From an uncultured Roseivirga sp. (GTDB lineage: Bacteria > Bacteroidota > Bacteroidia > Cytophagales > Cyclobacteriaceae): a DNA stretch of 64,000 nucleotides. The DNA lies in NCBI GenBank assembly GCA_947493005.1, contig CANLOY010000001.1, forward strand, positions 620,001 through 684,000, given 5' to 3'. Made by a program: the position numbers and the translations under genes. The first letter of the stretch is position 1. Every line of letters begins with the position of its first letter. Below the pieces are notes generated by a model. It did no database searches and was not told the origin of the DNA. It was given only the letters and a program-made list of their open reading frames with translations. Shown here in pieces: positions 5,626 to 33,496 of this stretch.

Positions 5626-6813
5626 CTAAGTCTTTTTTGAACCTATCACCTTCATCATTGCTTTTTTCACTCTTTGAGAAAACAGTACCATAGGGCTGTA
5701 TAATGGTCGGTACTTGTAGAGTTTAGCTTGCAGAGCAGTTTGAGATCTCGCATTGTCTGCCACATGAAGTAAATTCGTATTTTTTATGAGTGACCAAGCT
5801 GGTTTGGTTTCTTTTACCGCACCACCGTTCCACCCTGAACCATAGTCCTGTCCGAATGAGTACCTTTTTTTAATGCTCAAATCCAAACAGTTAAGTTGCG
5901 GATTCATATACATGGCAAACTCACTTAATGCAGAAGCCCCTTTGATCAAAAAGTCTGCTTTGGACAAGAGACACATGTCAAAAAGTACATCTTCGCCTTT
6001 TCTATATGGCGATATATTCTTGAGGTTGAAAATGGCTTCTTCATTGGACGATCTATTACTATCATACGAAACTACCCGGTCACCATAACGAGCTTTGAAA
6101 GCATCTAAATACTGCTGCTGATCTGTAGCAACGAATACCCTTGGTTGCTCATGAGATTCAACCCAGTCATCAATATGATGAAAATACTCTGCGGGACTTA
6201 CCGGTGGGGCATAAGTTAAATCCGTACCTCGAATGTGTATTCCTAAAACTTGGTACCCCACCAAGTTTGCCTTCCAAAACGCATTGATGCGTGAAGTGAT
6301 TGAGGGTTTGATCTGTATATATTTCGAAAACGTTTCATGTCCCTTGAGCCGCTGATGATCATACCAAGCCACAATATCCTCGGGAGGGCTCAACCTCCAA
6401 TCGGCAAAAGTGTAAGAGAAAATACTGCGTTCATCATGCTCACATATATGTAGCATCTCACTATCCTCTAGGTTGTAAAAGTCAAAAGAAGACAGTAAAT
6501 GAGCCGAGTCTTCACGGTACTTTTGGATAGTAGAATAATCGAAGGGCGGAACCAGCGGTTCAAAATATTGATCCCACATATTCTCACCATATTTCCTATC
6601 AAAAAAATGGCTTTGACAACTCTCATCGTAATTCACTACAGGCATTAACCCATTACGCTCGCAGTACCTAATTTGGTTCAAAGTCTGCAACAACATGGCT
6701 CCAAACCCTGCACCCTGAAGATTTAACTGAAGAATATAGATACCTTTATACCATTCTAAAAGTCTATTAATCTCTGATTGATCTACTTTCTCAACAGACT
6801 TATCTTCTTTCAT
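5626..6813 (-). CDS. FUT8/NodZ-like fucosyltransferase-superfamily glycosyltransferase (copy 1)
   Basis: A 395-residue protein with the three peptide motifs of the FUT8/NodZ/POFUT superfamily (GT-B fold, GDP-sugar donors). Motif I, LGIHIRGTD, is near residue 190 with the donor-binding arginine. Motif II is VFVATDQQQYL, near 225. Motif III, GEDVLFDMCLLSKADFLIK, is near 290 and followed by ASALSEFAMY. The N-terminal half carries a signature shared by all copies in this window: GAGFGAMLLQTLNQIRY, PVVNYD and NMWDQYFEPL. No signal peptide or membrane segment is seen, so it should act in the cytoplasm or at the membrane face. Together with copies at 6989, 10265, 15886, 25853 and 28426 it forms a large family expansion. 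It probably transfers L-fucose, L-galactose or a related GDP-linked sugar; the donor is inferred. Confidence 0.8.
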   Translation of the reverse strand: MKEDKSVEKVDQSEINRLLEWYKGIYILQLNLQGAGFGAMLLQTLNQIRYCERNGLMPVVNYDESCQSHFFDRKYGENMWDQYFEPLVPPFDYSTIQKYREDSAHLLSSFDFYNLEDSEMLHICEHDERSIFSYTFADWRLSPPEDIVAWYDHQRLKGHETFSKYIQIKPSITSRINAFWKANLVGYQVLGIHIRGTDLTYAPPVSPAEYFHHIDDWVESHEQPRVFVATDQQQYLDAFKARYGDRVVSYDSNRSSNEEAIFNLKNISPYRKGEDVLFDMCLLSKADFLIKGASALSEFAMYMNPQLNCLDLSIKKRYSFGQDYGSGWNGGAVKETKPAWSLIKNTNLLHVADNARSQTALQAKLYKYRPLYSPMVLFSQRVKKAMMKVIGSKKT

Positions 6814-6914
6814 AGAAAATGATTAGCGCCATAATTAAGGATTTTGAAGGTCATAAAAATACCTGCCATTCCCGAACAATTTAGGAAAGATTATCTCGGA
6901 TAGACACGAATAAT

Positions 6915-6922
6915 TATCTTTG
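6915..6922 (+). promoter_or_regulatory. Bacteroidota -7 promoter element (TATCTTTG)
   Basis: TATCTTTG fits the Bacteroidota -7 consensus TAnnTTTG. It lies 67 bp before the ATG at 6989, so transcription would begin near 6929. A clear -33 TTG element at the right spacing is not seen, so the call is tentative. Confidence 0.35.
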
Positions 6923-6988
6923 ATCAAGCCTGATTGAATAAACTCAATTTAGTAGATCACCTCACGATTAAAGAACTTGTCTATAGGA

Positions 6989-9166
6989 ATGAAACTCACA
7001 AAACTGCAAAGTGACACCAAAATTCTGATCATTCGAATTAATCATTCCAATGCTGGATTCTTTGCCTACCTAACCTTTGTACTCAATCAAATTATCCATT
7101 GTGAGGAACACGATATGGTTCCTGTAGTCTATTTTGGTCCATGGTCAGTAGATGGTCCCAATGCATACCATGACCCAAGTGTAGGCGACAACATGTGGGA
7201 CTATTACTTTGAGCCAGTAGCGGGCTATAATTACAGTGATATTCAGGCTTTAATTGCGAATCCCGACCATCCAATTACGGAGGAGAACCTCATTTACCTG
7301 GAAGATGATGTGATGTCATATCTGCATGATGGTAACCCTGACAGCATTTACAATTATCCTTATGGTTATTACACTGATCTGGAAGAAGGTGTTGATCATT
7401 GGTATGAGCGTCAAAGAAAAAAGGCCAGTCAGCTGATAGAAAAATATGTGCACGTCAAAGAAGAGCTGCTGACGGAAACAAATGCTTTTATCCATGACCA
7501 TTTTGAGAACAACAAGGTACTAGGAGTACATATGAGAGGTACGGATAAGGGGTGTGCAACTGAAGTACAGCATTTATCCAAAATCATTCCTCCTGCTAAG
7601 TACTTCCCGCATATCGATGAGTTTATTCAAAAGCAACCAGATGCAAAAATATTTCTGGCGACAGATCAAGCTCAGTTTGTAGAACAAATGAGAGCAAAAT
7701 ACCCTGGTCGTATCCTTACTCAGTCAACCATTCTCTCAGACTCACAAGTAAATACCTTTCAAAAAGAAGGTGGAAACAATTATCAGAAGGGTAAAGAGGT
7801 TCTACTTGATTGCCTCATTCTTTCTCGCTGTAGTCAACTTCTGAAATGTACCTCAGCTGTTGGTGAATATGCTCTTTATTTCAATAACAACATAAGCAGC
7901 TTAGATCTTAATGAACTCTATGGGCGTCCAAACTTTGTTCAGAAGATTAAAACGCTCTTACTAATAGAACCCTACACTTTTATGAGAGATGCTGTTCGGA
8001 TATTAAGGGACTCCTCAAAAAGTAATTCAGCTCTTTTTTGGTTTATAATGACTGATTACCCGCTTTTACGCAGGTTTTCAAACTGGTTGGAGTCAACACA
8101 GTTCTCTGGCAAGGTTTTCTGGCGTTCCTTATTTTTCTTAAAAAAGTACATCTCTTTAGTGCGTCATAAAGAAGAAATCCCCTTTCAACAAGTAACTCAA
8201 ATGGCTAATCATGCTCGCAAACGTAAAGGTGCAAGCTATTATTCCTTCAGAAATGCAAAGGGAAAGAAGTATCTAGAAATCCGGGCCGATGGCGACCCTC
8301 AAGCTGCCTTTTTTGCCCAGTTTGTCTACGTTTTGCAGCAGCTACGTTTTGCCGAGACACACCACCTCATCCCAATAGTCAATTATGATCACCCTTATAA
8401 TTACTACCAAGATCTACGTGTAGGTAACAATGTATGGGAAAACTATTTTGCGCCTGTTTCTGGCCTATCTTCTTCTGAATTAGAAAAACTGGATCCCGCA
8501 TCAATTACTTTTCTTCATCCGGAAGAACAACGATTACTCTTTTTAGGTGAAGGCGATCAACCACCCATCCAATATGATAGCCAGACCAGAGAGTGGTGGC
8601 GAAAACAGCGAGAAATGGGCTCCAAACTCACCGCAAAATATGTGCGGGTACGACCAGAGATTATGACTCGGGTTGATGATTTTTATCAGACTCATATGCA
8701 AGGGCACACAGTCTTAGGCATGCATCTAAGAGGAACTGATAAATCCGTTGGACCTGATGGGAAACGTTTTGATTGGCCGGAAACCTTTATCCGTATCGTT
8801 CCTCCTAAAGAATACTTTCCATATATCGACCAATTCTTAGCTCATAACCCTGAAGGCAAACTGTTTGTAGCTACAGATCAAAGGCAATTCCTAGAAGATA
8901 TTGTGGAAGCGTACGGAGACAAAGTAATTCAAACAATGGCCGTACGTTCTGAAACTGAAAAAGCAGTCTTTAGTCGTTCAGGCAACGGATACGACCGTGG
9001 AGTAGAAGTACTTACAGATGCATTACTTTTATCAAAATGTAATTTTCTTGTAAAATGTATGTCGAATGTGGGTGAGGCTGCAGTTTACTTCAATCCCAAG
9101 ATGCCTGTCATAGATATTTTCTACCCTCAGAAGGCAGAAGATTTTGAGACTTTCTTTAGTAAATAA
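6989..9166 (+). CDS. Tandem two-domain FUT8/NodZ-like glycosyltransferase (copy 2)
   Basis: A 725-residue fusion of two complete copies of the FUT8/NodZ-like domain. Domain 1 (about 1-310) has VLGVHMRGTDKG, FLATDQAQFVEQM and KGKEVLLDCLILSRCSQLLK. Domain 2 (about 425-725) has VLGMHLRGTDKS, FVATDQRQFLEDI and GVEVLTDALLLSKCNFLVK. Each half also begins with the family's N-terminal signature (NAGFFAYLTFVLNQI; QAAFFAQFVYVLQQL) and NxW(D/E)xYFxPV. A linker of roughly 115 residues, rich in basic and aromatic residues, joins them and may touch the membrane. Both halves keep the motif I arginine, so both may be active and could add two sugars in succession. The start is the ATG at 6989; a TTG four codons upstream is less likely. 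It is transcribed away from copy 1, with a -7-like element between. Confidence 0.82.
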   Translation: MKLTKLQSDTKILIIRINHSNAGFFAYLTFVLNQIIHCEEHDMVPVVYFGPWSVDGPNAYHDPSVGDNMWDYYFEPVAGYNYSDIQALIANPDHPITEENLIYLEDDVMSYLHDGNPDSIYNYPYGYYTDLEEGVDHWYERQRKKASQLIEKYVHVKEELLTETNAFIHDHFENNKVLGVHMRGTDKGCATEVQHLSKIIPPAKYFPHIDEFIQKQPDAKIFLATDQAQFVEQMRAKYPGRILTQSTILSDSQVNTFQKEGGNNYQKGKEVLLDCLILSRCSQLLKCTSAVGEYALYFNNNISSLDLNELYGRPNFVQKIKTLLLIEPYTFMRDAVRILRDSSKSNSALFWFIMTDYPLLRRFSNWLESTQFSGKVFWRSLFFLKKYISLVRHKEEIPFQQVTQMANHARKRKGASYYSFRNAKGKKYLEIRADGDPQAAFFAQFVYVLQQLRFAETHHLIPIVNYDHPYNYYQDLRVGNNVWENYFAPVSGLSSSELEKLDPASITFLHPEEQRLLFLGEGDQPPIQYDSQTREWWRKQREMGSKLTAKYVRVRPEIMTRVDDFYQTHMQGHTVLGMHLRGTDKSVGPDGKRFDWPETFIRIVPPKEYFPYIDQFLAHNPEGKLFVATDQRQFLEDIVEAYGDKVIQTMAVRSETEKAVFSRSGNGYDRGVEVLTDALLLSKCNFLVKCMSNVGEAAVYFNPKMPVIDIFYPQKAEDFETFFSK

Positions 9167-9211
9167 GACATTAAAGGTCGGCTGTATTTCTCAGATTCAC
9201 TAAAACGCATT

Positions 9212-10234
9212 TTAGTAAGTTTTTTCCAGATCAAATACTGCTCTTCCATAGCGTTCCATAAAAGCTTTTACTTTTTTGGCTTCTTTATCTTCAGTACCTC
9301 GCCATATGCCTCCATATTCCAATATTCCCTTACGAATGGTTGCATGTTCATAAGTCCAGTCATCAAACTTGTGTACTTTTTCTTTTTCCATAAAAATCTG
9401 CACCGCTGCAGACTGCATGACTAAATCGTTCCATCTATAGATATGACTAGCTCCCATTTGGTCGAAATGATGTAAAAAATGCTGAACTCGCTCACTTTTC
9501 CAAAACGATAGTTTGGATATGAAAAAGTTATTAAAGTACCCCCAATTGTCATACGTTCCCTTAACCTTAAGATGATCTTTCATTAGAGGGTATCTTATAG
9601 ACAAAAGCTGATACATTACGTTTCGCAGTTTATCCTTAAAATCAGGGTTCCATAGATGCTCATTAAAAAAAGTAGGTGATATCTTATTATCTCTGATATA
9701 GGCATGCAGGGCATCACTAAAGCCTTCTGTCAAACGGTGTGGTTCTCTAGAGTCCACTCGATATCCATATTCGAAATTATTACGTTCCATATATTCGAAG
9801 ATATCATAGTCTATGGGCGAGTGAAGTACTGAATCATCATCAAAGCGACAAACCCAATCGAACCCAAGGTCACTAGCAATATCAAACAATTGAAGCGTAT
9901 AGAACCTACACATATGTCGATGACCCATGCCCCATTCTCCATAAGCACTCCCTGCTGATGAAACCCACCTATCGGGTATTTTAGATTTGTCAAGAAAGTC
10001 CGGAACCTTAAACTCAACTTCTTGAAACGAAATCTCTGGACGCCCCTTAATTACCTGCTCCTGATCAGCCTCAGTATAATCTCCTTCATGAAATACAATG
10101 ATAGACTGGCGGAATTTGTCATTATAGTTCTCGTACAGCTTGTCGAGGCTGAGCTCAAGCATAGTCCGTGAATCTCGACCCCATTGAGGATCTTTTTGAG
10201 TGTTCTGTGCCAGGTAAACGAAGGTTGGATTCAT
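9212..10234 (-). CDS. GT15-like (Kre2/Mnt1-type) glycosyltransferase, copy 1
   Basis: A 340-residue protein resembling GT15, the alpha-1,2-mannosyltransferase family best known from fungal Golgi (Kre2/Mnt1, Ktr). The order of motifs fits. MGHRHMCRFYTLQ (about 103) matches the fungal Y-R-x-M-C-R-F block. CRFDDDSVL (about 133) stands at the metal-site EPD position. SPIDYDIFEYM and a following FEYGYRV match the IDYDxFxFM block. YRWNDLVMQSAAVQIFM with VHKFDDWTYEHA (about 275-315) matches the C-terminal RWxDxxxxSxAxxLF block and the aspartate/tyrosine/histidine stretch after it. No signal anchor is present, unlike the fungal Golgi enzymes. It is a close paralogue of 35708-36736. The donor is probably GDP-mannose or a relative, by family. 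It lies 30 bp downstream of the FUT8-like gene at 10265-11371 and is probably co-transcribed with it. Confidence 0.75.
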   Translation of the reverse strand: MNPTFVYLAQNTQKDPQWGRDSRTMLELSLDKLYENYNDKFRQSIIVFHEGDYTEADQEQVIKGRPEISFQEVEFKVPDFLDKSKIPDRWVSSAGSAYGEWGMGHRHMCRFYTLQLFDIASDLGFDWVCRFDDDSVLHSPIDYDIFEYMERNNFEYGYRVDSREPHRLTEGFSDALHAYIRDNKISPTFFNEHLWNPDFKDKLRNVMYQLLSIRYPLMKDHLKVKGTYDNWGYFNNFFISKLSFWKSERVQHFLHHFDQMGASHIYRWNDLVMQSAAVQIFMEKEKVHKFDDWTYEHATIRKGILEYGGIWRGTEDKEAKKVKAFMERYGRAVFDLEKTY

Positions 10235-10264
10235 TATTAACTTAACTGTTGATCTGTACAGGGC

Positions 10265-11371
10265 TTAGTTTTTACTAATATCATTCAGAGAGTCTGTAAA
10301 ACTCATCCATTTCTCAAAGTTGACCTTTTTTTCTCGTTTAAAGTACTCATCCCATTTTTGCCAGGTTCTTAACATTGCTCGAGGAGTTAAAGAAATTGAT
10401 TTGACGGCTGCGGTCATTGCTTTGCGATGGGTATTATAATGGAGTATATCTGGGTCGCTTAGCAGCACAGTTCGTGCAAGGCTTGCACCATTGTGAATGA
10501 GCACATTACATCTTTTCAGAAGTAAATAATCTACCAAAGCTTCAGCACCGTTTTCAACCGCAACCATTGGATCAGAAGCAATATATGCTGGCATTAGGGC
10601 TCCGGTTGGCCCTTTGCCTGCTGGTGCTGTTCCTTCTGAATGTAAAATAGTAGCGCAGCTTATAACCTCTAAACCATACGCCTTTTTGATTGCATCGAGA
10701 GAAGAAACGGAATCAGTAGCTACAAAAATCTTTGCCATTGGAAAACGTTTTTTTTCTATTTGAATACGTTTTAAATAACGATCCAAGACCAGAGAATTTT
10801 TTCGAAACAGTCTGGGCTCTGCCTCACTAATTGCATCTGTTCCACGAATATGAACGCCAATTATGGGACTATCTTTAAAGTGCTGTTCAGCAAAAACACC
10901 TGCTCTTTCTAGCAAGTATTGCTTAGGTCTTATGAAGCTTTTTATAAGTCGGTTGGAAACCCTCCTTAACCAGTCATCAGGATCATTCCATTCGAAAGGA
11001 ATCGCCAGGCAATCATTTCTGAGCTGGGAATGGTCTCCAAAATTATTGGTCAAGAAATGATTTTTATCAAAATGCACTCCTTCCATTCCTCCTCCCAAAA
11101 GTGCTTCTTCAGAGAAACTTTTTACTTCTTCTGGAATTACATCACTTGAATAGTTTTCCAATAATGGTTCAAAATAGTATTCCCAAACATTATGCTTACC
11201 CTGATAACCACTTGGTACCCAGTAACAACAATTTTTTCCAAAATACACTATCGGAATGGACTCAGCATTAAGTGCTCTTGGCAAATTAGCTACTACTTGT
11301 TGTATAAGCGAAAACAAGCCTGCATCACGCTCACAAATTACGAAGATTCGTTCCTTAGCTTGAGAAATCAT
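10265..11371 (-). CDS. FUT8/NodZ-like glycosyltransferase (copy 3, divergent)
   Basis: A 368-residue member of the same family, the most divergent copy. Motif I is intact (IGVHIRGTDAIS, about 175). Motif II is FVATDSVSSLDAI, without the Q-x-Q found in the others. Motif III is GAEALVDYLLLKRCNVLIH followed by NGASLARTVLL. The N-terminal signature is reduced to DAGLFSLIQQVVANL and NVWEYYFEPL. An extra loop of about 20 residues rich in Gly, Pro and Ala sits before motif III (APAGKGPTGAL). Its GT15-like neighbour starts 30 bp downstream, so the two may act one after the other on the same glycan. The altered motif II suggests a different donor or acceptor, which is inference. Confidence 0.75.
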   Translation of the reverse strand: MISQAKERIFVICERDAGLFSLIQQVVANLPRALNAESIPIVYFGKNCCYWVPSGYQGKHNVWEYYFEPLLENYSSDVIPEEVKSFSEEALLGGGMEGVHFDKNHFLTNNFGDHSQLRNDCLAIPFEWNDPDDWLRRVSNRLIKSFIRPKQYLLERAGVFAEQHFKDSPIIGVHIRGTDAISEAEPRLFRKNSLVLDRYLKRIQIEKKRFPMAKIFVATDSVSSLDAIKKAYGLEVISCATILHSEGTAPAGKGPTGALMPAYIASDPMVAVENGAEALVDYLLLKRCNVLIHNGASLARTVLLSDPDILHYNTHRKAMTAAVKSISLTPRAMLRTWQKWDEYFKREKKVNFEKWMSFTDSLNDISKN

Positions 11372-11623
11372 TTGTGTTCCAAGTTGTAGGTTAAATCAAA
11401 TGTTGATCTTTATTTTTCATTATTGAGGCTGTATAATTCTCAGTGTTTGACTCATTGAGAACCTAATTACTTTGACTCGACTATTCAAAGTAAAAGTTTT
11501 GTCTAAATTTAAATCGCCTGGCTCGTAAACTATACCTCTAACTCAATATTTTTGTATTGGGTTTTGAGTGTAGTAAAGTTATAAAAGAGATTTATTTCAC
11601 TTTCAAGCCATATATTGCTGCTA

Positions 11624-12514
11624 ATGAAAAAAATGCAAGATAATAATGTCTATTACAATCGATTTGTAATAGTTAAGAAACTTCTTAAGTCTATAGGTTT
11701 GTATGCACCTTATGAAGTATCAAATACCATTCTATCTCAGTACATTTTTTTTAGAAAACTCTTCCGTTTTCTTGGTTTATATCCTCACATGAAGGCAATG
11801 CACTTTTACAACGAAAATCCAAATTCCTTTATGGCACCTAAAGTGTATGAGTATGGGTGTATGATGAAAATGACCGATTTAAAAAAGACAGACGTTGTAC
11901 TTGATTTAGGTTGTGGAGAAGGTACTCTTACATTATCACTGGCCAAATCGGTCAAAAAGGCGGTTGGAGTGGATACACATTCCAGGTCAATTGAAGATGC
12001 CAGATTCAAAAGTTTAGAGTTAAAAAAGAAGGTAAATGCCGAGTTTTATTGTGAGAGAATAGAAAAACTAAACCTTCCTACCGGTAGTTTTGACAAAGTA
12101 TTCAGCTTTTCAGTAATTGAACATATTCCCAACTATGAAGAGGTTTTTCATGAACTTTATCGGTTGTTGGCAGAAGGAGGAGAACTAATTATTTCCGTAG
12201 ATAGTTTTAGCAACTTTGACCAAGAGCTTTTAAAAATTCACAAACATATATTTTTTGTTGAGAAGTACTTTACAAGTAACGAATTAAAAGATTTACTCTT
12301 AGGTCTTGGCTTTAAAACCGTTGAGATCAAACCTATCTTCAAAAGCTCATTTGCCAAAAAGTGGTTTACAAGGGTTATGAAGGATCCTGCGGAAAGTTTT
12401 GGTTTTCATAAACGCATCTATTCATTCCTACTATATTATGTTATTCGCTATCATGAGCGCAAAACAAAGGAGAGTAGTAACGGTATTTTTCTTTTGGCCA
12501 GGTGTGTGAAATAG
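11624..12514 (+). CDS. Class I SAM-dependent methyltransferase
   Basis: A ~296-residue Methyltransf_11-type enzyme. The SAM-binding motif VLDLGCGEGTLTLSL is near residue 90, AVGVDTHSRS follows with the acidic residue that binds ribose, and FDKVFSFSVIEHIPNYEEV near 150 is the post-motif region. The N-terminal 80 residues, including MAPKVYEY, are shared with a degenerate copy at 32418-32759. The start is taken at the ATG at 11624; a TTG three codons upstream is possible. It probably methylates a sugar or a glycan-linked group, judged from its place. The gene stands alone on + between a divergent FUT8-like gene and the Tat/GMC pair. The acceptor is not predictable. Confidence 0.83.
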   Translation: MKKMQDNNVYYNRFVIVKKLLKSIGLYAPYEVSNTILSQYIFFRKLFRFLGLYPHMKAMHFYNENPNSFMAPKVYEYGCMMKMTDLKKTDVVLDLGCGEGTLTLSLAKSVKKAVGVDTHSRSIEDARFKSLELKKKVNAEFYCERIEKLNLPTGSFDKVFSFSVIEHIPNYEEVFHELYRLLAEGGELIISVDSFSNFDQELLKIHKHIFFVEKYFTSNELKDLLLGLGFKTVEIKPIFKSSFAKKWFTRVMKDPAESFGFHKRIYSFLLYYVIRYHERKTKESSNGIFLLARCVK

Positions 12515-12735
12515 TATGCTCTCAGAGTATTTTTTTAGAATAAAAGCAAGAACTGACTGACTTTTCAACTTCACTCTCTTTAGTAGACTCTGATAAATTA
12601 AACATGGAATTATTGAAAGATGAACCTGTTAAAGCACATGGTCTTTTAATACTCAATTAAAGAGTCAGAGTTAATTAATCAAGATTGCCAATAAGATAAT
12701 TACACCCATTCAAATAAAATCTCTACTTTGGTATT

Positions 12736-12918: not shown

Positions 12919-12953
12919 GGGTTCAAAATCAACTCGACTAAAACACGAAAGCC

Positions 12954-14363: not shown

Positions 14364-14406
14364 GCTAACTTCTTAACCTGAGTTCAGGACAGGAGAAGAA
14401 GTCATG

Positions 14407-14452
14407 CCGGAAAAATAAGCCTTTACTTAAGAATAAGGCTTATTTTATCCGG
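14407..14452. terminator. Long hairpin terminator
   Basis: CCGGA-AAAATAAGCCTT on the left pairs with AAGGCTTATTTTATCCGG on the right around an ~8-nt loop. The stem of about 16 pairs has one bulge. Its place just after the GMC stop, between convergent genes, fits a transcription stop for both strands. Confidence 0.6.
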
Positions 14453-17767: not shown

Positions 17768-17857
17768 CTCAAGGTTTAAAATCCCAAAACATTGATTTTG
17801 AATAACTCTAATGCCATTAATTTCACCCCAAAGCATCATATTGATGATACAAGATCT

Positions 17858-20722: not shown

Positions 20723-21118
20723 ATGAGAATCTGTATCGACCTGGACGGAGTAATTGCTCAGTTCAAAAAAGAGGGACAAACCTATGCCGATGTAGCACCT
20801 GTTGACGGTGCCATAGAGAAATTAAAAAGCCTAAAAGAAAACGGACATTATATAATTATTTTCACGGCACGCCACATGAAGACCTGTGATGGCAACGTGG
20901 GTAAAGTTAATGCCAGGATTAGTTTACAAACGCTGGATTGGTTAGACAGGCATGAAGTGGTTTATGATGAGATTTTCTTTGGTAAGCCCTGGGCAGAAGT
21001 ATATATAGATGACAACGCCTTTAGGTTTGAAAACTGGAATGATATTGATGGCAGTGGTGAAACACTTCCGGTATCTAACGAAAAAACAAAAGACCTTAAT
21101 CAAAAACTCGGTTCATGA
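20723..21118 (+). CDS. HAD-superfamily phosphatase, capsule type
   Basis: A compact 131-residue HAD protein without a large cap domain. Motif I is ICIDLDGVI at the N-terminus (nucleophile DxD), motif II IIIFTARHM near 50, and motif IV VYIDDNAFRF near 93. A lysine, FFGKPWAE, stands at the motif III place. Small HAD proteins of this kind are found in capsule loci next to sugar nucleotidyltransferases, where they dephosphorylate a sugar phosphate or related intermediate. It is the last gene of the + run that includes the nucleotidyltransferase at 17048, and lies 34 bp after the GT-C gene. Substrate unknown. Confidence 0.8.
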   Translation: MRICIDLDGVIAQFKKEGQTYADVAPVDGAIEKLKSLKENGHYIIIFTARHMKTCDGNVGKVNARISLQTLDWLDRHEVVYDEIFFGKPWAEVYIDDNAFRFENWNDIDGSGETLPVSNEKTKDLNQKLGS

Positions 21119-21147
21119 CTCCACCTCTACTCTAAGCCTAGTGAGTT

Positions 21148-22287
21148 TTACTTGTCAATCAACGGTAATAGTAACTCACTAATTTTCTCGGCTCTTATTT
21201 GGTTGCCTAAAAAATTGAAGTGCATACCGTCCGTGAGCCACTCATCTTCAAGAGACAATTCCTTCTCTAAGTCTAGCAGTGGCACACCGTTGTCTTTGCT
21301 TAAATCTCGAATTATGTCATTGTGCTCTAAAATACATTCTTGAAAAGCTTCCAGCTTAAGCTCCGTAACATAGGATGGGTGAGTTTTGGAATAGGTAAAA
21401 GTAGAAAAGACTACCTGGGTGCCATTTGATCTTGCAACCTCGACCAACATTTTCAGATTTCTGTGAAAGAAAATGGGCTTATTTACTTTCAACATCATAT
21501 CGACAGGAATTGTATCGAAAATCCCTGAAGGATATGTGTTATTCCTCAATTGCTTTTCTAACGCAACACTATGATTGGATTCTGGTATTTTGACAACATT
21601 GTTCCAACTAGTTTCGGGGCTGATGACTCCTGCAAAGATCAGCGGAACCCGAATAATACTTAAACTGCTGATGCCTTTATATTCAGGAGATGACTGAACG
21701 GTGTAGGAACCAGACTGATCTGCTTTATAGGCTTCAGGTGGCCAGACTGCACGAGTCCAAATATCATTAACCGCATGGTAGACTAACAGCATATCTGGAT
21801 TTAAGTCTTCAATTTTGGTCAAGTAGTTTATGTAAGATTGCAGAGAATTATAGCCTCTTACCCCTGCATTGATCACTTCGACATGAACCCCGGACTCATT
21901 TAATTTTTTCTCCAGCAAAAACGGATACGAATGTTCATAGTCATCCACACCGGTACTATAAGTAGTAGAACCACCAATGCAAACTATTCTAAAGGTGCTG
22001 TCTGGTTTATCTTTAAGAATTTCTTTGCCCCTGAATCCAAGACTATTATGCACATTAACTCCATTATTATAATTGGGTGTGTTTTCATAGCCCAGATAGA
22101 AATGAGGCATGACAACAGGCTTTATAAACCTCTTTTCAATCATGCTTCTGGAAGCATAAATCTGAAATCTCTGTGTGTCAGCAAAGTGAATAAGATAAAC
22201 CCTCAATGCGACCTCACAAATAGTCAATAAAAACAGGCTATATGCTAGCCAACCCAAGACCTTTTTTTCTCTTTTTGTCAATTTCAT
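21148..22287 (-). CDS. Membrane-anchored SGNH/GDSL hydrolase-like protein
   Basis: A 379-residue protein with one N-terminal membrane segment (about 10-30) and a periplasmic SGNH-fold domain. Block I is VCIGGSTTYSTGV near 105 with the nucleophile serine. INAGVRGYNS, near 140, is the glycine block, and YHAVNDIWT near 168 holds the asparagine. WLTDGMHFNFLGN, near 350, holds the catalytic Asp-x-x-His. All four blocks are present, so it should be an active esterase or acyltransferase-type enzyme. In glycan loci such proteins add or remove acetyl groups from sugars. It is separated by ~80 bp from the GT2 gene at 22368 on the same strand. The bond it acts on is inferred. Confidence 0.82.
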   Translation of the reverse strand: MKLTKREKKVLGWLAYSLFLLTICEVALRVYLIHFADTQRFQIYASRSMIEKRFIKPVVMPHFYLGYENTPNYNNGVNVHNSLGFRGKEILKDKPDSTFRIVCIGGSTTYSTGVDDYEHSYPFLLEKKLNESGVHVEVINAGVRGYNSLQSYINYLTKIEDLNPDMLLVYHAVNDIWTRAVWPPEAYKADQSGSYTVQSSPEYKGISSLSIIRVPLIFAGVISPETSWNNVVKIPESNHSVALEKQLRNNTYPSGIFDTIPVDMMLKVNKPIFFHRNLKMLVEVARSNGTQVVFSTFTYSKTHPSYVTELKLEAFQECILEHNDIIRDLSKDNGVPLLDLEKELSLEDEWLTDGMHFNFLGNQIRAEKISELLLPLIDK

Positions 22288-22367
22288 GATTCACTTAAAA
22301 CTCTCGTTTCAATAATTAACATGAGTGTTATCAAGTTATTTTTTTTTCAGAGTAATTATTAAACAAT

Positions 22368-23111
22368 TCAACTGAAAAGCTGAGAAATCTTCCTAATCGG
22401 CTTGAGCAGAATAGTATAAGGCGCAGGGCTAAGACCATTACTCTTCCATGCCCTATAATCTTCTTTAAGTGAGGAGAGGCGTTTAGAAATACCCCCATCG
22501 CTATTACCTTTATTTCTCATCTTCACTAAAACCTCAGGGATATAAAAAGTACTAATCTCCTTTTTATACAGAAATCTTAAAATGAGTTCATAATCTCCTG
22601 AAATCTTAAAAGAGCTATCGAACAAGCCGTATTTATTATAAACCTCTTTTTTAACAAAAAAAGATGGATGCGGAATTGCCCATCCAAATTTGAATTTGTT
22701 TTTGAAAAATCCTCCTGATTTCCAATTACGATAAACCTTACCTATGTTATCACGATGTACATAGTGTAAATCACCATAAACTGAATCTGTGCCTTCAGTA
22801 AGAAAACAATTGGCTACTTTTGAAAGTACTCCAGTATGACTATAGAAATCATCAGAATTGATAATCGCAACAATATCTCCAGTAGTATAAGAAATAGCTT
22901 GATTCATGGCATCGAAAATACCTGAATCATTTCCTTCAATAAGTTTTATCGCTTTACCGAAAGATTTGATAATAGGGATGGTCTGGTCTGTAGATCCCCC
23001 ATCAAATATAATGTATTCAATATCTGCGTAATCCTGTACTAAAACACTTTCAATGGTATCAGAAATGGTAGATTCACTATTAAGACAAACTGTAACCAGA
23101 GAAATCTTCAT
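22368..23111 (-). CDS. GT2 glycosyltransferase (intact paralogue of 612-1391)
   Basis: A 247-residue GT-A enzyme of the WcaA-like group. MKISLVTVCLNSE is the donor-binding strand, FDGGSTDQT follows, INSDDFYSH holds the metal-binding aspartates (about 85), and SGDYELILRFLY near 175 has the catalytic-base region. FGWAIPHPSFFVKK is a conserved acceptor-side loop. The start at 23111 is preferred to an ATG five codons upstream (MKQIL), since the first strand begins directly after. It lies 34 bp downstream of the epimerase at 23145, on the same strand, and is probably in one operon. The truncated copy at 612-1391 has the same motifs. Confidence 0.85.
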   Translation of the reverse strand: MKISLVTVCLNSESTISDTIESVLVQDYADIEYIIFDGGSTDQTIPIIKSFGKAIKLIEGNDSGIFDAMNQAISYTTGDIVAIINSDDFYSHTGVLSKVANCFLTEGTDSVYGDLHYVHRDNIGKVYRNWKSGGFFKNKFKFGWAIPHPSFFVKKEVYNKYGLFDSSFKISGDYELILRFLYKKEISTFYIPEVLVKMRNKGNSDGGISKRLSSLKEDYRAWKSNGLSPAPYTILLKPIRKISQLFS

Positions 23112-23144
23112 AAGGATTTGCTTCAATCTATACTATATAGCAAA

Positions 23145-24134
23145 TCAGCTCGAAACGAGTAAGCTCTCATTCTGATTAACATTTACTTGTTCAACTATCC
23201 AATTATATGTTTTCGTCAGCCCTTCTTCAAGTGTAAGTTGAGGTTCCCAACTCAGTTTTTCAAAAATCAATTTATTATCTGAGGTACGTCCTCTAACACC
23301 CTGAGGACCTTCAATATGTTTGATTTTAAGTGACTTCCCCGAAATATTTATATAAAGTTTGGCTAGGTCATTAATAGATATTAAAAACTCCGATCCAATG
23401 TTTACAGGTCCATTGAAATCTGACTTTACCAATTTATAAATGGCATCAATACAATCATCAATATAAAGAAACGAACGGGTCTGCTCACCATCACCCCAAA
23501 CTTCGATCTCATCTAAATTTTTGGCTTGTACCACCTTTCTTGCTAATGCTGCTGGCACTTTTTCTTTGCCTCCATCATAAGTGCCTTCAGGTCCAAATAC
23601 ATTGTGGAATCTAGCTACTTTCACGTCAATGCCGTGGTTTCTCATAAATGAAGCATACAGCCTCTCACTAAACAGCTTTTCCCAACCATATTCGCTGTCA
23701 GGCTCTGCAGGATACGCAGAATCTTCGGCACAATTCGGGTTATTAGGATCTAGTTGATTGTACTCTGGATAGATACAGGCTGATGAGGAATAGAATATCG
23801 TTTTTACTCCCGCTTTTACAGACGCATGAAGCAAGTTTAGGTTAATCATCGCTGAATTGTGCATTACATCAGCATCATTATCCCCCGTAAATAAATAGCC
23901 TGCACCGCCCATATCAGCTGCCAACTGATAAACTTCATCAATATGGTCTTCTAGCAGACTAGCTACCAATACTGGATCTCGCAAATCTCCGATAATAAAT
24001 TCATCTGCGGTACTTTCACTAAACTCTGGGTATTTTAGATCAACACCCCTTACATAGTATCCTTCATTTTTCAAGAAGGTCACCAAATGGCTCCCAATAA
24101 ACCCACCTGCGCCACATACTAGTACACGGTTCAT
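23145..24134 (-). CDS. GDP-mannose 3,5-epimerase-like SDR enzyme (copy 3)
   Basis: A 329-residue paralogue, closest to the copy at 3039: both have GVDLKYPEFSES, QLAADMGGAGYLFTGD, YNQLDPxNPNC and KVPAALARKV. The cysteine motif is SSSACIYPE and the catalytic motif YGWEKLFSERLY. It is followed by the GT2 gene 34 bp downstream, so the epimerase may feed a donor to that enzyme. Like the others it should convert GDP-mannose to an L-sugar nucleotide. Three closely related copies in one locus suggest gene duplication or exchange between sub-clusters. Confidence 0.83.
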   Translation of the reverse strand: MNRVLVCGAGGFIGSHLVTFLKNEGYYVRGVDLKYPEFSESTADEFIIGDLRDPVLVASLLEDHIDEVYQLAADMGGAGYLFTGDNDADVMHNSAMINLNLLHASVKAGVKTIFYSSSACIYPEYNQLDPNNPNCAEDSAYPAEPDSEYGWEKLFSERLYASFMRNHGIDVKVARFHNVFGPEGTYDGGKEKVPAALARKVVQAKNLDEIEVWGDGEQTRSFLYIDDCIDAIYKLVKSDFNGPVNIGSEFLISINDLAKLYINISGKSLKIKHIEGPQGVRGRTSDNKLIFEKLSWEPQLTLEEGLTKTYNWIVEQVNVNQNESLLVSS

Positions 24135-24675
24135 ACGTTTCTGATTTTATAAGTAAGTTGAGCAAAACTACTGGCTGAGAATTGTAAACATAAGAAGACA
24201 ATGTAAAAAGACAAAGACAAACGCTACTCATTCTATCAATTACAACAAAGAAAATGAGAGCTTCTAAAAATGAAAACCCATTCAGGTTATGATACTAGAT
24301 TTTTTACATTAAAAAGATGTCTTTTTCTAAGAAGACTGATCAAAGTTCAATAGGATAGTCATGGTAGAAGAAAAGATGATCAGCCATAAACACTCATCAA
24401 TGTATAAAGAAAGACCAAGTTTGTTTTCTGTTATCTCAAACTTCTATTGACTTTCCAACTTCACATATCAATACCATACTTTACGTATTTCATTCGTTTG
24501 AATAGACAAGCCATAATGCATACCATTTGACTTATGAAAAGTCGCAATAATGCACCCGTAGTTTTTCACTCATATTAAAGAGAATATCTGCACAGGAGTG
24601 ATATATTAGTGCTTTGTTCTGATGAGTATTTCATTCATTGATTTGATAGGGTGCCCAATCAGTTTATAATATGTT
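24135..24675. other. Intergenic region, no gene seen
   Basis: A 541-bp A+T-rich stretch between the divergent epimerase (copy 3) and the broken gmd gene. It must hold promoters for both, but no exact Bacteroidota -7/-33 pair was found by eye. The longest tidy frame (ATG near 24361) gives only about 29 residues and is not supported as a gene. Confidence 0.5.
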
Positions 24676-25715
24676 ATGAAAACAGCACTTATCTCTGGAA
24701 TTACTGGACAAGATGGCTCTTATTTGGCAGAATTATTACTCCAAAAAGGCTATATAGTTCACGGAATCAAGCGTAGATCTTCTTCATTTAATACAGAGAG
24801 AATCGACCACATTTATCAAGAACCACAAGCGCCTAACCCAAAGTTCACACTTCACTATGGAGATCTTACTGATGCCACCAATATTATTAGGATTATTCAG
24901 GAAGTAGAACCTGACGAAATCTATAACTTGGGAGCTCAAAGCCATGTAAAAGTGAGTTTTGAAACTCCTGAGTACACGGCCAATAGCGATGCTCTTGGTA
25001 CATTAAGGATATTGGAAGCTATCAGAATTTTGAGACTTACTAAAAAAACCCGATTCTATCAGGCCTCTACTTCTGAAATTTTTGGGAAAGTACAACAAGT
25101 TCCGCAGAGTGAGCAAACACCATTTCACCCTAGAAGCCCCTATGGAGTAGCCAAACTATATGCGCACTGGATTACAGTAAACTACAGAGAGGCCTATGGC
25201 ATGTACACTGCTAGTGGCATACTTTTCAATCATGAAAGCCCAAGGCGTGGTAAAACATTCATTACTAGGAAGGTAACTAGAGGTGTAGCGGCTATTAAGT
25301 TGGGGATGAAAGATTGTCTGTACGTGGGCAATTTAAATTCAGAAAGAGATTGGGGAGACGCTCGGGACTATGTTAAAGGTATGTGGCTCATGTTGCAACA
25401 GGAGGAACCAGATGATTATGTACTGGCTACTGGCAGAAAACACAGCGTCAGGACATTGATAGAAATAGCATTCAATGTTGTGGATGAAGAGATAGAATGG
25501 AGAGGAAATGGTCTTGATGAAATCGGTGTCTTGAAAAGTTCAGGGCGAACCGTTATAAAAATAGACGAGAAGTACTGAGACCATCTGAGGTTGATGCTCT
25601 GGTAGGTGATGCTTCAAAAGCTAGGGAAAAGTTGGGTTGGGAACCCAAAATAAGTTTTGAAGAAATGGTAAGTGAGATGGTATTAATTGATCATGAACAA
25701 CTAGTAAAACTTTAG
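24676..25715 (+). pseudogene. gmd: GDP-mannose 4,6-dehydratase with 3' frameshift
   Basis: GDP-mannose 4,6-dehydratase makes GDP-4-keto-6-deoxy-mannose, the precursor of GDP-fucose, GDP-rhamnose and others. The frame from 24676 shows [23 protein letters not shown], the catalytic STSEIFG and [10 protein letters not shown], and [10 protein letters not shown]. It stops at 25578 after VIKIDEKY, whereas the family goes on with F-R-P-x-E-V-D. That continuation is found in the +1 frame right after: RPSEVDALVGD, KLGWEPKISFEEMV, ending at 25715. One base is missing near 25576 (TACTGAGA in place of TAC-TTN-AGA). The truncated product lacks about 45 C-terminal residues that shape the substrate pocket. 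A real mutation, programmed shift or sequencing error are all possible. Confidence 0.85.
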
Positions 25716-25852
25716 ATTAGCCTCTTACAGATAAGCTCGCATTAGCCAAGAAGATATTTGGCGAAGGAAGTTGTTTATTATTGTCATGAATCTTCATCTA
25801 CCATCTAGATAGCATTAAAAATTTTACTAGTAAAAAGCTCCAAGTGAATTTC

Positions 25853-26968
25853 ATGAAAGAAGTGCTCAATAAGTATGACAAAATCTATGTAATTAAAGCA
25901 CCACTAACTGGAGCTGGATTTGGTGCTATAATACTCAATGTATTGAGCCATTTAAGATATAGTAAAAGAGCTAACTATTATCCTGTGGTAAACTTCGATA
26001 ACAGTTGGGACAATCCGTATGCTGATCCTTCTCTTCATGATAATTTCTGGCACCACTACTTCGAACCAGTGATGTCATATTCAAGCAATGATCTAAAAAA
26101 GTATGCGGCTGAAATTAATGACTCTACGGCAGATGATTCTATTTTCTCCATGCCTTACGAAACGTTTGTTGAACTGGTTGAGGAACATCCTGATAGTGTT
26201 TACAGTTTTACCTTTGGGAAGTGGCGATTTGCGAAAAATTTGGACCTTGATGAATGGTACAAGGAGCAACGAAGAAAAGGCCGAGAAACCGTAAAGGAGT
26301 TCATTAGACCCAAGGCACATATTGTTGACAAGGTAAACAGTTTTTATAAACAACACCTAAAAGGCTCTTTTGTACTTGGATTACATGTCAGAGGTACGGA
26401 TATGAATTATGGCGCGGTTGTAGCGCCTGCTGAATACTTTAAGCATATTGATTCTTACATAAAGCAGCATGCTGATCTGAAAATCTTTCTGGCAACCGAT
26501 CAGGTTCAGTACCTAGAGGTTTTTCAGGACAAATATGGCGAAAGGGTATATTATACTAACTGTCTGAGGTCGGAAGATGAAATAGCCCCATTTAAAATGG
26601 AGAATGCTTCTCCCTATCAAAAGGGAGAAGAAATACTTCTTGATATTCTCTTATTAGCTAAATCGGATTTTTTAATTAAAAGTGCTTCTAATGTAGGTGA
26701 AATGGCCATATACTTTAGTGAAAACCTAGAGTGTCTTGATCTTGCTTATAAAAAAAGGTATGCGTACGGAGAGGATTATGCAGATAATTGGGATACTAAT
26801 GCAAATACAGTTGCATGGAAACTAATGGAAGGACGCAAACTGGATGAATTATCAGAAGATGCTCATCACTATAACAAATTCTTTGCATTAAAGGCAAGGG
26901 TCATAAGGTCATATATAAGTCTAAAAAGAGTAGGGGGAAAGTTAAAAGCAAAGTGGCTCAATATTTAA
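25853..26968 (+). CDS. FUT8/NodZ-like glycosyltransferase (copy 5)
   Basis: A ~371-residue copy, closest to copy 1 at 5626: both share GAGFGA, the C-terminal KKRYxxGxDY and the N-terminal PVVNFD/PVVNYD. Motif I is VLGLHVRGTDMNYG (near 180), motif II IFLATDQVQYLEVF, motif III GEEILLDILLLAKSDFLIK with SASNVGEMAIYF. HHYFEPV near 65 matches the N-terminal signature. The start is taken at ATG 25853; a GTG three codons upstream is possible. It follows the broken gmd gene by ~140 bp, and ends 46 bp from a convergent gene. The donor may be a GDP-L-sugar; this is inferred from family and from the epimerases nearby. Confidence 0.8.
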   Translation: MKEVLNKYDKIYVIKAPLTGAGFGAIILNVLSHLRYSKRANYYPVVNFDNSWDNPYADPSLHDNFWHHYFEPVMSYSSNDLKKYAAEINDSTADDSIFSMPYETFVELVEEHPDSVYSFTFGKWRFAKNLDLDEWYKEQRRKGRETVKEFIRPKAHIVDKVNSFYKQHLKGSFVLGLHVRGTDMNYGAVVAPAEYFKHIDSYIKQHADLKIFLATDQVQYLEVFQDKYGERVYYTNCLRSEDEIAPFKMENASPYQKGEEILLDILLLAKSDFLIKSASNVGEMAIYFSENLECLDLAYKKRYAYGEDYADNWDTNANTVAWKLMEGRKLDELSEDAHHYNKFFALKARVIRSYISLKRVGGKLKAKWLNI

Positions 26969-27013
26969 TGAATAAAACGCATAAAACAATCACCATTCGT
27001 TAATGGTCTCCAT

Positions 27014-28147
27014 TCAGGAATTGAGATTTAGTCCCGCATTGGGATCTGGATTATCATTTACATATTCAAATATTCGTTCCACATGTGCTATATCCTCACC
27101 GCTTCTTACTGCAGTTAGCTCATTTGCAAAATGGATTTCCATCTTTTTCTCCAAAGCTAATGCTAGTAGTTCTTTTCTTCTAGCAGATGATGTTGGAAGT
27201 GAATAAACAGAGCACAGAATAATACCGTCAACATTATATCCACTTATAAACTCTTCAAGACTTGGAAGCCAATCGCAAAACTCATTCTCAAACAGGTAGT
27301 CATTGATCTCTATTCCAAGTTTTTGGCAATAATTATTAATGACATTCCTTTGCATAGGTAAAGGAATACCGGTCGAGAATGGTGTATTCCAACCAGCATA
27401 AGATATCCATGTCTTATTGTTGTCTAATTTAATATTTGATTCCCTTTCATTTAGAAAACGAAAGTACCCACCTGGTAATTTCCTATGATAATGCCCTCCT
27501 TTAGGTAAAATTCTGCCGTCCATTGACCAACGGGTAATGTCCGTAGTGTTATTAATATTACCATGAATATGAAATTGTTGAAAAAGTAGTGCTTGCCCAG
27601 GTTTCATGGTAACTGGGTTGGTTTTTTCCAGACAATGCTGTTGAATAGTTGGGTAATCCCATTGATTATTATAAATCTGCTTGGTAAGCTCAATACTTTC
27701 CTCATACGAGCATATCTGCATACTATTTGATGAAAACACTTCAGTAAAAGGAGTCCAAATGGTTCGCATCCCTAAACCGTTACCTACCCAAATACCTTGA
27801 TGGAAAGGCAACAATCTTCCTTTGTTTGCCTGATTGGGAATTACAATGCGTATGGTAAAATATCTTTGAATCATCCATTCCCTTAGTTGAGTATGTGTGT
27901 GAACGATATCTTGAAAATACTTATCAACTCGATCACAAAACTCAGCAGAAGCACAAGCTGATTGACAGTATCGACCAAGCATGAGTATTTCTGAAGGTGA
28001 GAGAAGTTTATGTACTGTTTCTAAAGATTCAATTTGCGGAAACCTTTCTTGAGCTATAGAAAGCCAATAATTTGGCCAGTCATGTTGATTTAAATCATAA
28101 TCAACTGATTTCAAGTCAGTATTGTGGTCGAGAACATTAAAATTCAT
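27014..28147 (-). CDS. 2OG-Fe(II) oxygenase fused to LIC12192-like sporadic carbohydrate cluster domain
   Basis: A 377-residue two-part protein. Residues ~1-240 look like a phytanoyl-CoA-type 2-oxoglutarate/Fe(II) oxygenase of the 'sporadic carbohydrate cluster' group: LLPFHQGIWVGNGLG holds the first iron histidine, FQQFHIHGN and TTDITRWSMDGRILP hold the second histidine and the 2OG arginine. Residues ~255-370 resemble the LIC12192-like family of the same clusters: GIPLPMQRNVINNYC, YNVDGIILCSVYSLP and KMEIHFANE. The two parts are usually separate neighbouring genes, as far as I recall, so this is a natural fusion. The oxygenase may hydroxylate a sugar or a sugar-linked chain. The role of the second part is unknown. 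It is convergent with copy 5, with ~46 bp between. Confidence 0.7.
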   Translation of the reverse strand: MNFNVLDHNTDLKSVDYDLNQHDWPNYWLSIAQERFPQIESLETVHKLLSPSEILMLGRYCQSACASAEFCDRVDKYFQDIVHTHTQLREWMIQRYFTIRIVIPNQANKGRLLPFHQGIWVGNGLGMRTIWTPFTEVFSSNSMQICSYEESIELTKQIYNNQWDYPTIQQHCLEKTNPVTMKPGQALLFQQFHIHGNINNTTDITRWSMDGRILPKGGHYHRKLPGGYFRFLNERESNIKLDNNKTWISYAGWNTPFSTGIPLPMQRNVINNYCQKLGIEINDYLFENEFCDWLPSLEEFISGYNVDGIILCSVYSLPTSSARRKELLALALEKKMEIHFANELTAVRSGEDIAHVERIFEYVNDNPDPNAGLNLNS

Positions 28148-28425
28148 AAAGAGACATTCGTTCTTAGTAAATAGCTAGCAGGCCTTTAAGCGAAAAAATC
28201 GAAACCATGATTAAACTAATTCATCAGTATAGACAACACTAAATTAAAAAGAAGAAATCTTTTCATTAAAAAAACTAGCTTCTAGTCAGTTTTATACCTT
28301 ATAGAAAAATTAAAGATAAGCTCTATTACAAAACCCGATGCTTTAGTGTAACAAAAGAATCGAAAGTACTTTGCATTAATGGATTGGTTTGTGAAATCTT
28401 TATATTTCGACATATAGATTATGTA

Positions 28426-29544
28426 ATGAATAAGCCTGAAAAAAGTATTCAAGACAAGGTACCATTTATTTGGCATGGGCAAGAGTATGAAAAAGTACTC
28501 ATTATCCAAAACCATGATTTGCATGCAGGCTTCACTGCTTTATTAATCTATGTGCTTAATGGAATTAGGAAAGCCAAAGCAATGAATGCCGTACCTGTCA
28601 TTGACTTTAACGCTGAAAACACACCTTATTTTTATGATGCGCCCAGCGGAAAAGATGTGTTTACATATTTCTTTGAGGCCATAAGTCCTTTTAGATTATC
28701 TCAGATTTTAAAATGGGAAAGAGAAGGCAAAATTGACAAAAATCAAATACAGTACATAAAACCTCAAGAAGCCGCAAAAGATCATCTTCATGACCCTGAT
28801 CGTTTAGCCACATTTTGGGCATGGGAGAAACCTCTTGACAAGGTGGCCTGGATGAACACCAAAAGAACTCTCGGAAGAGAATATGTCCGAAAGTACCTTA
28901 AGCCCAAAGTCTCCATACAGAAAAAGGTAAGCAAGTATATAGATACATATTTCAAAGCCGATTTCATTATAGGAGTCCATATCAGAGGTACAGATTTTGC
29001 TTATGCTCAACCGACTTTGTTCAAAACATATCTACAAAAAATCGATGAGTTACTGAGTAAAATAAAACCAGTGGATTATCAGATTTTCGTGGCTACTGAT
29101 CAAGAGCAGTACCTAGAAAACTTCAAAGAACATTACGGTGAGAAGATTTTATCGTGGAATGCCATCCGATCAGTCAATCATATTGCCCCATTCAGGTTTG
29201 ATAATGTAAGCGGCTATCAAAAAGGAGAAGATGTATTAATTGATATGCTACTGCTGTCAAGATGCCATCATATGATTAAAGGAGCGGCTGCCGTTGGTGA
29301 GTTGGCTTTGTGGTTTTGTGATCATAATGACATTACCGATTTTGCGATTGAAAGTGACTTCAACAGAGTGCATTATGGAAAGCAAGAAAGTACATTCTCT
29401 AGATTAAATGTTGATAGAAAAAATATTACAAGGTTAAAACTTCATAAGCTGAGGGAGTGCTTGGTCCGCAGATTGGTCGCTTCTCGTGTAGGAATGGCAC
29501 TCTATGTTAGATCGGCTCTGGTTAGAAAAGTATTGAAACATTAA
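28426..29544 (+). CDS. FUT8/NodZ-like glycosyltransferase (copy 6)
   Basis: A 372-residue sister of the gene at 15886. Motif I is IGVHIRGTDFAYA, motif II FVATDQEQYLENF, motif III GEDVLIDMLLLSRCHHMIK with GAAAVGELALWF. FAIESDF and a basic C-terminal tail are shared with copy 4. The start at ATG 28426 (MNKPEK) is chosen because it matches the paralogue's start (MDKSES); an ATG 14 codons upstream would add a tail that the paralogue lacks. It stands alone on the + strand; no epimerase is directly linked. As for the others, the donor is expected to be a GDP-L-sugar. Confidence 0.8.
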   Translation: MNKPEKSIQDKVPFIWHGQEYEKVLIIQNHDLHAGFTALLIYVLNGIRKAKAMNAVPVIDFNAENTPYFYDAPSGKDVFTYFFEAISPFRLSQILKWEREGKIDKNQIQYIKPQEAAKDHLHDPDRLATFWAWEKPLDKVAWMNTKRTLGREYVRKYLKPKVSIQKKVSKYIDTYFKADFIIGVHIRGTDFAYAQPTLFKTYLQKIDELLSKIKPVDYQIFVATDQEQYLENFKEHYGEKILSWNAIRSVNHIAPFRFDNVSGYQKGEDVLIDMLLLSRCHHMIKGAAAVGELALWFCDHNDITDFAIESDFNRVHYGKQESTFSRLNVDRKNITRLKLHKLRECLVRRLVASRVGMALYVRSALVRKVLKH

Positions 29545-33491: not shown

Positions 33492-33496
33492 TGCTT

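Follow-up and report, generated by a model that had tools for sequence, protein, structure and literature searches.

FUT8/NodZ-like glycosyltransferases and GDP-mannose 3,5-epimerases clustered in a putative surface-polysaccharide locus of a Roseivirga genome

The window analysed here, a stretch of 64,000 nucleotides from an uncultured Roseivirga sp. (contig CANLOY010000001.1, positions 620,001 to 684,000), carries six genes with seven domains of a single glycosyltransferase (GT) family at 5.6-29.5 kb, and raises the question of which sugar such a set of enzymes transfers and how it came to be assembled in one locus. The explanation that is given slightly more than even credence is that of a surface-polysaccharide locus in which a GDP-L-hexose made by GDP-mannose 3,5-epimerases (GMEs) would be used by the FUT8/NodZ-like GTs, with the genes forming an old, exchanged cassette.

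Superfamily and fold of the glycosyltransferases

A search of the window's own genome (4.88 Mb in 24 contigs, 98.7% complete) with one GT copy returned seven matches at E <= 0.001 (best E 1.7e-259, weakest 8.7e-15, far beyond chance), all inside this locus, as are the six places matched by the Pfam NodZ model. Together with the open frames, these matches bear out the six genes and seven domains of one family described in an earlier note on this DNA. Each of the six proteins has matches to Pfam NodZ (E 1.4e-3 to 3.9e-16; 2/6 over the curated cut-off) and Pfam FUT8_N_cat (E 6.1e-5 to 8e-13; 1/6 over the curated cut-off), mainly over its C-terminal half. Among solved structures, a profile of the seven domains retrieved NodZ (2hhc; E 3.5e-16) and FUT8 (E about 2e-11). 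The statement in the earlier note that all copies carry the family motifs holds for HxRGTD, found in 7/7 domains and including the HxR motif of the donor site in the GT-B fucosyltransferase superfamily. It is too strong for the other four patterns, F[VL]ATDxxQ (6/7; exception 10265), G-x-x-[AV]-L-x-D-x-x-[LI]-L (6/7; exception 25844, with I as fourth residue), [AG]GFxA (5/7) and [NS]xWxxYFE (4/7). The second of these four, the note's third motif, is given here in corrected form, since the pattern as first written omits one residue and so matches 0/7 domains.

AlphaFold2 models of two copies, 25844 (clade III) and 10265 (clade I), were compared with the PDB using Foldseek. The best 50 of the 74 and 73 matches (E <= 0.001), respectively, are all FUT8, NodZ, Arabidopsis FUT1 or POFUT (POFUT1/2), with FUT8 as the top match of the clade III model and NodZ as that of the clade I model. 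Profile searches and both predicted structures thus agree in placing the proteins in the FUT8/NodZ/FUT1/POFUT GT-B fucosyltransferase superfamily, as had been claimed. Given TM-scores of 0.33-0.61 and large root-mean-square deviations (rmsd 6.3-12.4) among the matches listed for the two models, the family is predicted to form a distant branch of this superfamily. An N-terminal part of the family's own, also proposed earlier, is doubtful. The N-terminal signature is in register with NodZ residues 6-63 (1 bit; alone not significant), and the NodZ alignments of both models (TM-score 0.48-0.61 by NodZ length; rmsd 7.4-10.4) span 322-353 columns, gaps included, against 286-292 for the length of NodZ itself. 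This points to an N-terminal half that belongs to the superfamily as a whole, with no added part.

Relatives, copy number and paralogue clades

The GT family was found in 3/59 near genomes, all of the same genus (3/19 of the genus, the window's own genome included). Twelve genomes of a 390-genome order sample match at E 1e-10, with full-length GTs only in two of this genus and weaker, partial matches in the remaining ten; as at most five candidates were scored per genome, copy numbers from this sample are lower bounds. Within a phylum sample of 395 genomes, four match, and only the window's own genome does so at full length. A scan of named genomes, which may omit records of the window's own genome, located full-length GTs in the congeners R. 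pacifica (NZ_FOIR01000001.1) and R. ehrenbergii (NZ_LQZQ01000003.1), a Cyclobacteriaceae metagenome-assembled genome (MAG) and three Alteromonadales, namely Alteromonas sp. KUL42, an Alteromonadaceae MAG and Planctobacterium marinum. Planctobacterium belongs to the Alteromonadaceae (Gammaproteobacteria) and Roseivirga to the Bacteroidota. No relative was detected in viral contigs (one scan) or phage records, and plasmids yielded a single distant match, annotated NodZ, in Leisingera (24% identity).

Each of the seven GT-positive genomes has three or more copies gathered in a single cluster. There are four genes with five domains in R. ehrenbergii, three genes with three domains in R. pacifica (the smallest complete cluster), the Cyclobacteriaceae MAG (near a contig end) and Alteromonas KUL42 (near a contig start), four genes with four domains in the Alteromonadaceae MAG, and four genes with five domains in Planctobacterium, if two adjoining partial frames are one broken two-domain gene. 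The expansion that the earlier note had seen in the six window genes therefore does not stand: related loci are largely as well supplied, with at least three copies in 6/6 other genomes, only two of the six genes are extra relative to R. ehrenbergii, and the paralogues are old.

A midpoint-rooted tree of 29/31 GT domains (two partial Planctobacterium pieces were dropped) and three outside NodZ-like proteins resolves five clades with ultrafast bootstrap values of 96-100%, each including both Bacteroidota and Gammaproteobacteria. These are clade I (10265-like; seven rows), clade II (15886 and 28426; eight rows), clade III (5626 and 25844; eight rows), clade IV (the N domain of 6977; three rows) and clade V (the C domain of 6977; three rows). 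Clades I, II and III occur in 7/7 GT-positive genomes, while the deepest fork in the branching order among the clades is weak (51/93). Pairwise identities among the window's GTs are 20-38%, with the exception of 15886 and 28426 (62%). Clade III falls into two subgroups, one uniting 25844 with copies from R. pacifica, Alteromonas KUL42 and the Cyclobacteriaceae MAG, the other uniting 5626 with copies from R. ehrenbergii, Planctobacterium and the Alteromonadaceae MAG. As both subgroups mix the two phyla, the distribution would be best explained by exchange of cassettes between Bacteroidota and Gammaproteobacteria. Judged from the tree, the paralogues are old and not the product of a local expansion.

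GDP-mannose 3,5-epimerases and the donor sugar

The best clue to the donor is provided by three genes among the GTs that the earlier note had left unmentioned. They encode short-chain dehydrogenase/reductase proteins (at 3039, 14698 and 23145) which are predicted to be GMEs. The protein at 23145 (GME3) matches the plant GME 2c59, which we take to be the Arabidopsis enzyme, over its full length (319 bits), compared with at most 105 bits for GDP-L-fucose synthase entries (best E 3e-29), and all three score 114-131 bits against a GDP-L-fucose synthase model with a cut-off of 500. According to section 6 of PMC8787198, GMEs are marked by a catalytic Cys, a Lys base and an Arg, with His and Lys in place of the last two in GDP-L-fucose synthase. 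C126, K198 and R289, matched in position by motif, are invariant in 10/10 aligned GMEs, the eleventh, GME2 of R. ehrenbergii, falling outside the alignment. A GME is present in 3/3 GT-positive Roseivirga genomes and 0/7 GT-negative congeners searched (of 16; E 1e-60), and in or near the GT cluster in 3/4 further GT-positive genomes, or 6/7 overall. The R. pacifica and Alteromonas KUL42 clusters each have one GME, in divergent orientation directly upstream of the three GTs; the KUL42 frame matches from query residue 25 only, its first part being odd. The second GMEs of two other Alteromonadales loci (L071:13017-13979 and L072:14098-15060) carry Ser in place of the Asp that closes beta strand 2 in the other eight, and on account of this replacement may use another cofactor, NADP instead of NAD.

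Donor routes were checked in three Roseivirga genomes, the window's own, R. ehrenbergii and R. pacifica. GDP-L-fucose synthase exceeds the cut-off in 0/3, with only the GMEs matching at E 1e-20 and far below the cut-off (4/14 control genomes lie above it), and Fkp is found in 0/3. Because GMEs stand among the GTs and no GDP-L-fucose synthase or Fkp is recognised, the likeliest donor, judged by gene company, would be GDP-L-galactose (or L-gulose), serving a polysaccharide that the ABC transporter of the locus would export. The GTs would thus probably use L-galactose rather than L-fucose: of the sugars put forward in the earlier note, L-galactose gains support as a candidate, and L-fucose as first-choice donor is disfavoured by the same absences in the three genomes.

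Under this explanation, the locus would build and export a surface polysaccharide from donors mostly derived from GDP-mannose, which the three GMEs would convert to GDP-L-galactose and possibly GDP-L-gulose. The FUT8/NodZ-like proteins would act as inverting GT-B transferases of GDP-L-hexose, yielding alpha-L-galactosyl units, with each clade making its own linkage. GT15-like and GT2 enzymes would add other sugars, the methyltransferases and the sulfotransferase may decorate the chain, and the ATPase and permease pair would export it. Paralogues I-V would represent a long-standing set that is passed on, and also swapped, as a cassette. The window strain would hold an R. ehrenbergii-type cassette and a second block as the source of its further clade II gene, further clade III gene and third epimerase.

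Several observations weigh against this explanation. GME fails as proof of the donor because it also occurs in many loci without the GT family: it is present in 31/390 order genomes, and full-length GTs of the family in only 2/390, and the chance that both of these are GME-positive (0.006) treats two congeners as independent. None of 143 genes around the GME in 20/29 GME-positive genomes without full-length GTs matches the GT profile, and no general association of GME with FUT-type GTs emerged from the GME neighbours of these 20 genomes. The GTs among 103 scanned neighbours are GT4-, GT26- and GT2-like (family numbers that we presume for the Pfam families concerned) and none is of this family, so that other GTs appear to use the GME product; the first 25 of 61 Pfam families listed for the 103 neighbours include no FUT-type family. 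The Cyclobacteriaceae MAG is GT-positive and lacks a GME, its GT contig ending 2 kb past the last GT. The three outside NodZ-like proteins join clades IV and V at the weak 51/93 fork, on long branches, and descent of the five clades from one ancestor is therefore not established. Finally, GDP-mannose 4,6-dehydratase (GMD) is encoded in 3/3 Roseivirga genomes (0.85 Mb from the GT cluster in R. pacifica), and a 6-deoxy donor might therefore be made through unrecognised enzymes.

It is conceivable, if rather unlikely, that the clades have no single family donor and use different GDP-sugars, such as GDP-mannose, GDP-L-galactose and a 6-deoxy sugar. The 20-38% identity between window clades would fit such a division, as would clade I, in which the Q of ATDxxQ is missing and H replaces the K of other clades at the end of the third motif, and the several GDP-sugar routes within one locus. 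However, the smallest loci keep clades I, II and III together beside a single GME, and mannose is already served by the GT15-like enzymes.

A little less probable still is a role of the GTs as true L-fucosyltransferases, or as transferases of another 6-deoxy-hexose, which might be C-methylated. In this case GMD would make GDP-4-keto-6-deoxymannose, the methyltransferase at 4316 would modify it, and a GME-like protein would finish the route as an epimerase-reductase, although the diagnostic residues match an epimerase and not an epimerase-reductase. While GMD adjoins GT II in R. ehrenbergii, and the C-methyltransferase adjoins GT III in four genomes (the window, R. ehrenbergii, the Alteromonadaceae MAG and Planctobacterium) and lies between GT III and GME1 in the first two, the smallest cluster, that of R. 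pacifica, has a GME and no GMD or C-methyltransferase relative over the 40 kb inspected. The solved structures retrieved from the superfamily are those of fucosyltransferases, but the three Roseivirga genomes, as described above, offer neither a GDP-L-fucose synthase over the cut-off nor Fkp.

Locus organisation and comparison with known systems

The window is collinear, in inverted orientation, with the R. ehrenbergii locus over 3-22 kb and 32-37 kb (Table 1). The common order is GME1, methyltransferase, GT III, GT IV-V, GT15a, GT I, GMC oxidoreductase, GME2, GT II, nucleotidyltransferase, GT2, protein 18571, NT5C-like protein, SGNH hydrolase, exporter, GT2-like enzyme and GT15b. R. ehrenbergii differs in having GMD beside GT II and a full GT2 gene after GME1, and the window in an MBL-rhodanese gene at 1517, the methyltransferase at 11615 and the extra block at 22368-32346, which accounts for its two extra GT genes and third epimerase. 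A recent tandem expansion in the window strain is very improbable despite the 62% identity of 15886 and 28426, as other pairs share 20-38%, every clade is common to other genera and a second phylum, and the gene order reveals one extra block and no tandem copies; tree and gene order reject it for all but the two GT genes of that block.

Table 1. Genes and other features of the locus, by position in the window
Feature	Position	Strand	Evidence
GT2 glycosyltransferase, 5'-truncated relic beyond GME1 end of locus	621-1391	+	homology from 621; 57% to 22368 GT2 over its residues 22-249; no in-frame ATG/GTG/TTG before 870
GME1, predicted GME	3039-4031	-	76% to 23145; diagnostic residues invariant
C-methyltransferase (Methyltransf_13/23/14)	4316-5542	-	Pfam E 5.8e-40
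GT clade IIIa	5626-6813	-	Pfam, tree
Two-domain GT: N domain clade IV, C domain clade V	6977-9166	+	NodZ 59.2 bits in 2 stretches; tree
GT15a, GT15-like mannosyltransferase (fungal Kre2/Mnt1 type)	9212-10234	-	Pfam PF01793 E 1e-22; 1s4n E 4.1e-17
GT clade Ia, most divergent GT	10265-11371	-	Pfam, tree, identities; model mean pLDDT 83.6, best fold match NodZ
SAM methyltransferase	11615-12514	+	Pfam
GMC-type oxidoreductase	12954-14363	+	Pfam PF05199 E 6.8e-21
GME2, predicted GME, more divergent	14698-15657	-	62% to 23145; diagnostic residues invariant
GT clade II	15886-17007	+	Pfam, tree
Sugar nucleotidyltransferase-like	17048-17767	+	Pfam PF00483 E 5.7e-8
GT2 glycosyltransferase	17792-18574	+	Pfam PF00535
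Protein without clear family, hydrophobic by look	18571-20688	+	86% to R. ehrenbergii
Small NT5C-like protein	20723-21118	+	Pfam PF06941
GDSL/SGNH hydrolase-like	21148-22287	-	Pfam PF13472 E 2.1e-17
Extra block relative to R. ehrenbergii, about 10 kb	22368-32346		gene order, Pfam: GT2 (22368), GME3, GMD, GT IIIb, weak PhyH-like (27014), second GT II, ORF 30095 without Pfam match, sulfotransferase
GME3, predicted GME	23145-24134	-	2c59 (entry named GDP-mannose-3',5'-epimerase) E 3.6e-94
GMD, early frame end	24676-25578	+	TIGR01472 E 8.4e-158; model positions 1-299 of 342; TGA at residue 300
GT clade IIIb	25844-26968	+	Pfam, tree; model mean pLDDT 85.4
GT clade II, second copy	28426-29544 (frame 28384/28426-29544)	+	62% to 15886
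Carbohydrate-type sulfotransferase	31528-32346	+	Pfam PF03567 E 8.9e-21
ABC-type polysaccharide exporter: ATPase 32742-33491, ABC-2 permease 33497-34318	32742-34318	-	Pfam PF00005, PF01061
GT2-like glycosyltransferase	34334-35386	-	Pfam, slightly below cut-off
GT15b, GT15-like mannosyltransferase	35708-36736	+	Pfam PF01793 E 1.7e-19

An ATPase and an ABC-2 permease are encoded among the GT genes, as defines ABC-transporter-dependent polysaccharide loci. Relatives of both occur in the R. ehrenbergii, R. pacifica, Alteromonadaceae MAG and Planctobacterium loci, and none was seen in the two GT loci near contig ends. The GMD homologue of R. ehrenbergii is a 367-aa open frame, and a second GMD of the window's own genome, on contig C8, is without inner stop. 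Both GT15-like enzymes are common to Alteromonadales loci (64-74% identity); the solved members of the GT15 family are mannosyltransferases of yeast and fungi. Upstream of the window, at about 612324-613787 of the contig, translations resemble by look a possible second ABC-2 type exporter pair with glycosyltransferase-like genes, possibly another surface-glycan locus. At 38520-53870 of the window, a 5116-aa open frame, possibly a giant surface protein, lies beside a PorP/SprF-OmpA protein (36868-38508).

NodZ, the rhizobial alpha-1,6-fucosyltransferase (PF05830), acts on Nod factor, and NodZ and GT23 enzymes proper transfer L-fucose from GDP-L-fucose to O6 of GlcNAc. It is the best solved relative by profile, but shares only 14-18% identity in fold alignments, 4/6 window proteins fall below its Pfam cut-off, and the window family occurs in clusters of at least three copies, with a GME in 6/7 genomes. 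The animal core alpha-1,6-fucosyltransferase FUT8 (PF19745) has the HxR and ATD motifs in common with the family, whereas it has HxRRTD for HxRGTD, fold alignments give 14-19% identity, and 5/6 window proteins are below its Pfam cut-off. The plant and Methylacidiphilum GMEs, as described in PMC6678494 and PMC8787198, share the diagnostic residues with the window's GMEs, but in the window three copies share a locus with FUT8/NodZ-like GTs; section 9 of PMC6678494 places one glycosyltransferase, its family unnamed there, beside the Methylacidiphilum GME gene. GDP-L-galactose, the donor proposed here, is likewise used by plant Cdi of rhamnogalacturonan II, compared by description only and presented as a putative GT8 (PMC12168206). 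Section 9 of PMC6678494 similarly describes L-galactofuranose, and hence use of an L-galactose donor, for the bacterial antibiotic A201A (its transferase compared by description only), by which account L-galactose is already known in bacteria. The fold family is also known; in the part of the open-access literature searched, no bacterial L-galactosyltransferase of this GT family and no paper on Roseivirga with O-antigen were found, nor were the bacterial branch, the multi-paralogue cassette or its pairing with GME.

More boldly, and as a tentative proposal that is itself unlikely, clades I-V could be a new bacterial alpha-L-galactosyltransferase family recruited from the fucosyltransferase fold, which with the sulfotransferase would make a sulfated L-galactan-like polymer, the cassette having been exchanged between marine Bacteroidota and Gammaproteobacteria. 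Sulfated alpha-L-galactans occur in sea urchins and ascidians according to a 2012 review (PMC3366676), in whose account virtually nothing was known of how marine sulfated fucans and galactans are made. The GME neighbours allow a precise test of the GT donor. If the donor is as read here, the cassette would hold several candidate alpha-L-galactosyltransferases with different linkages and would represent a bacterial route to L-galactose polymers.

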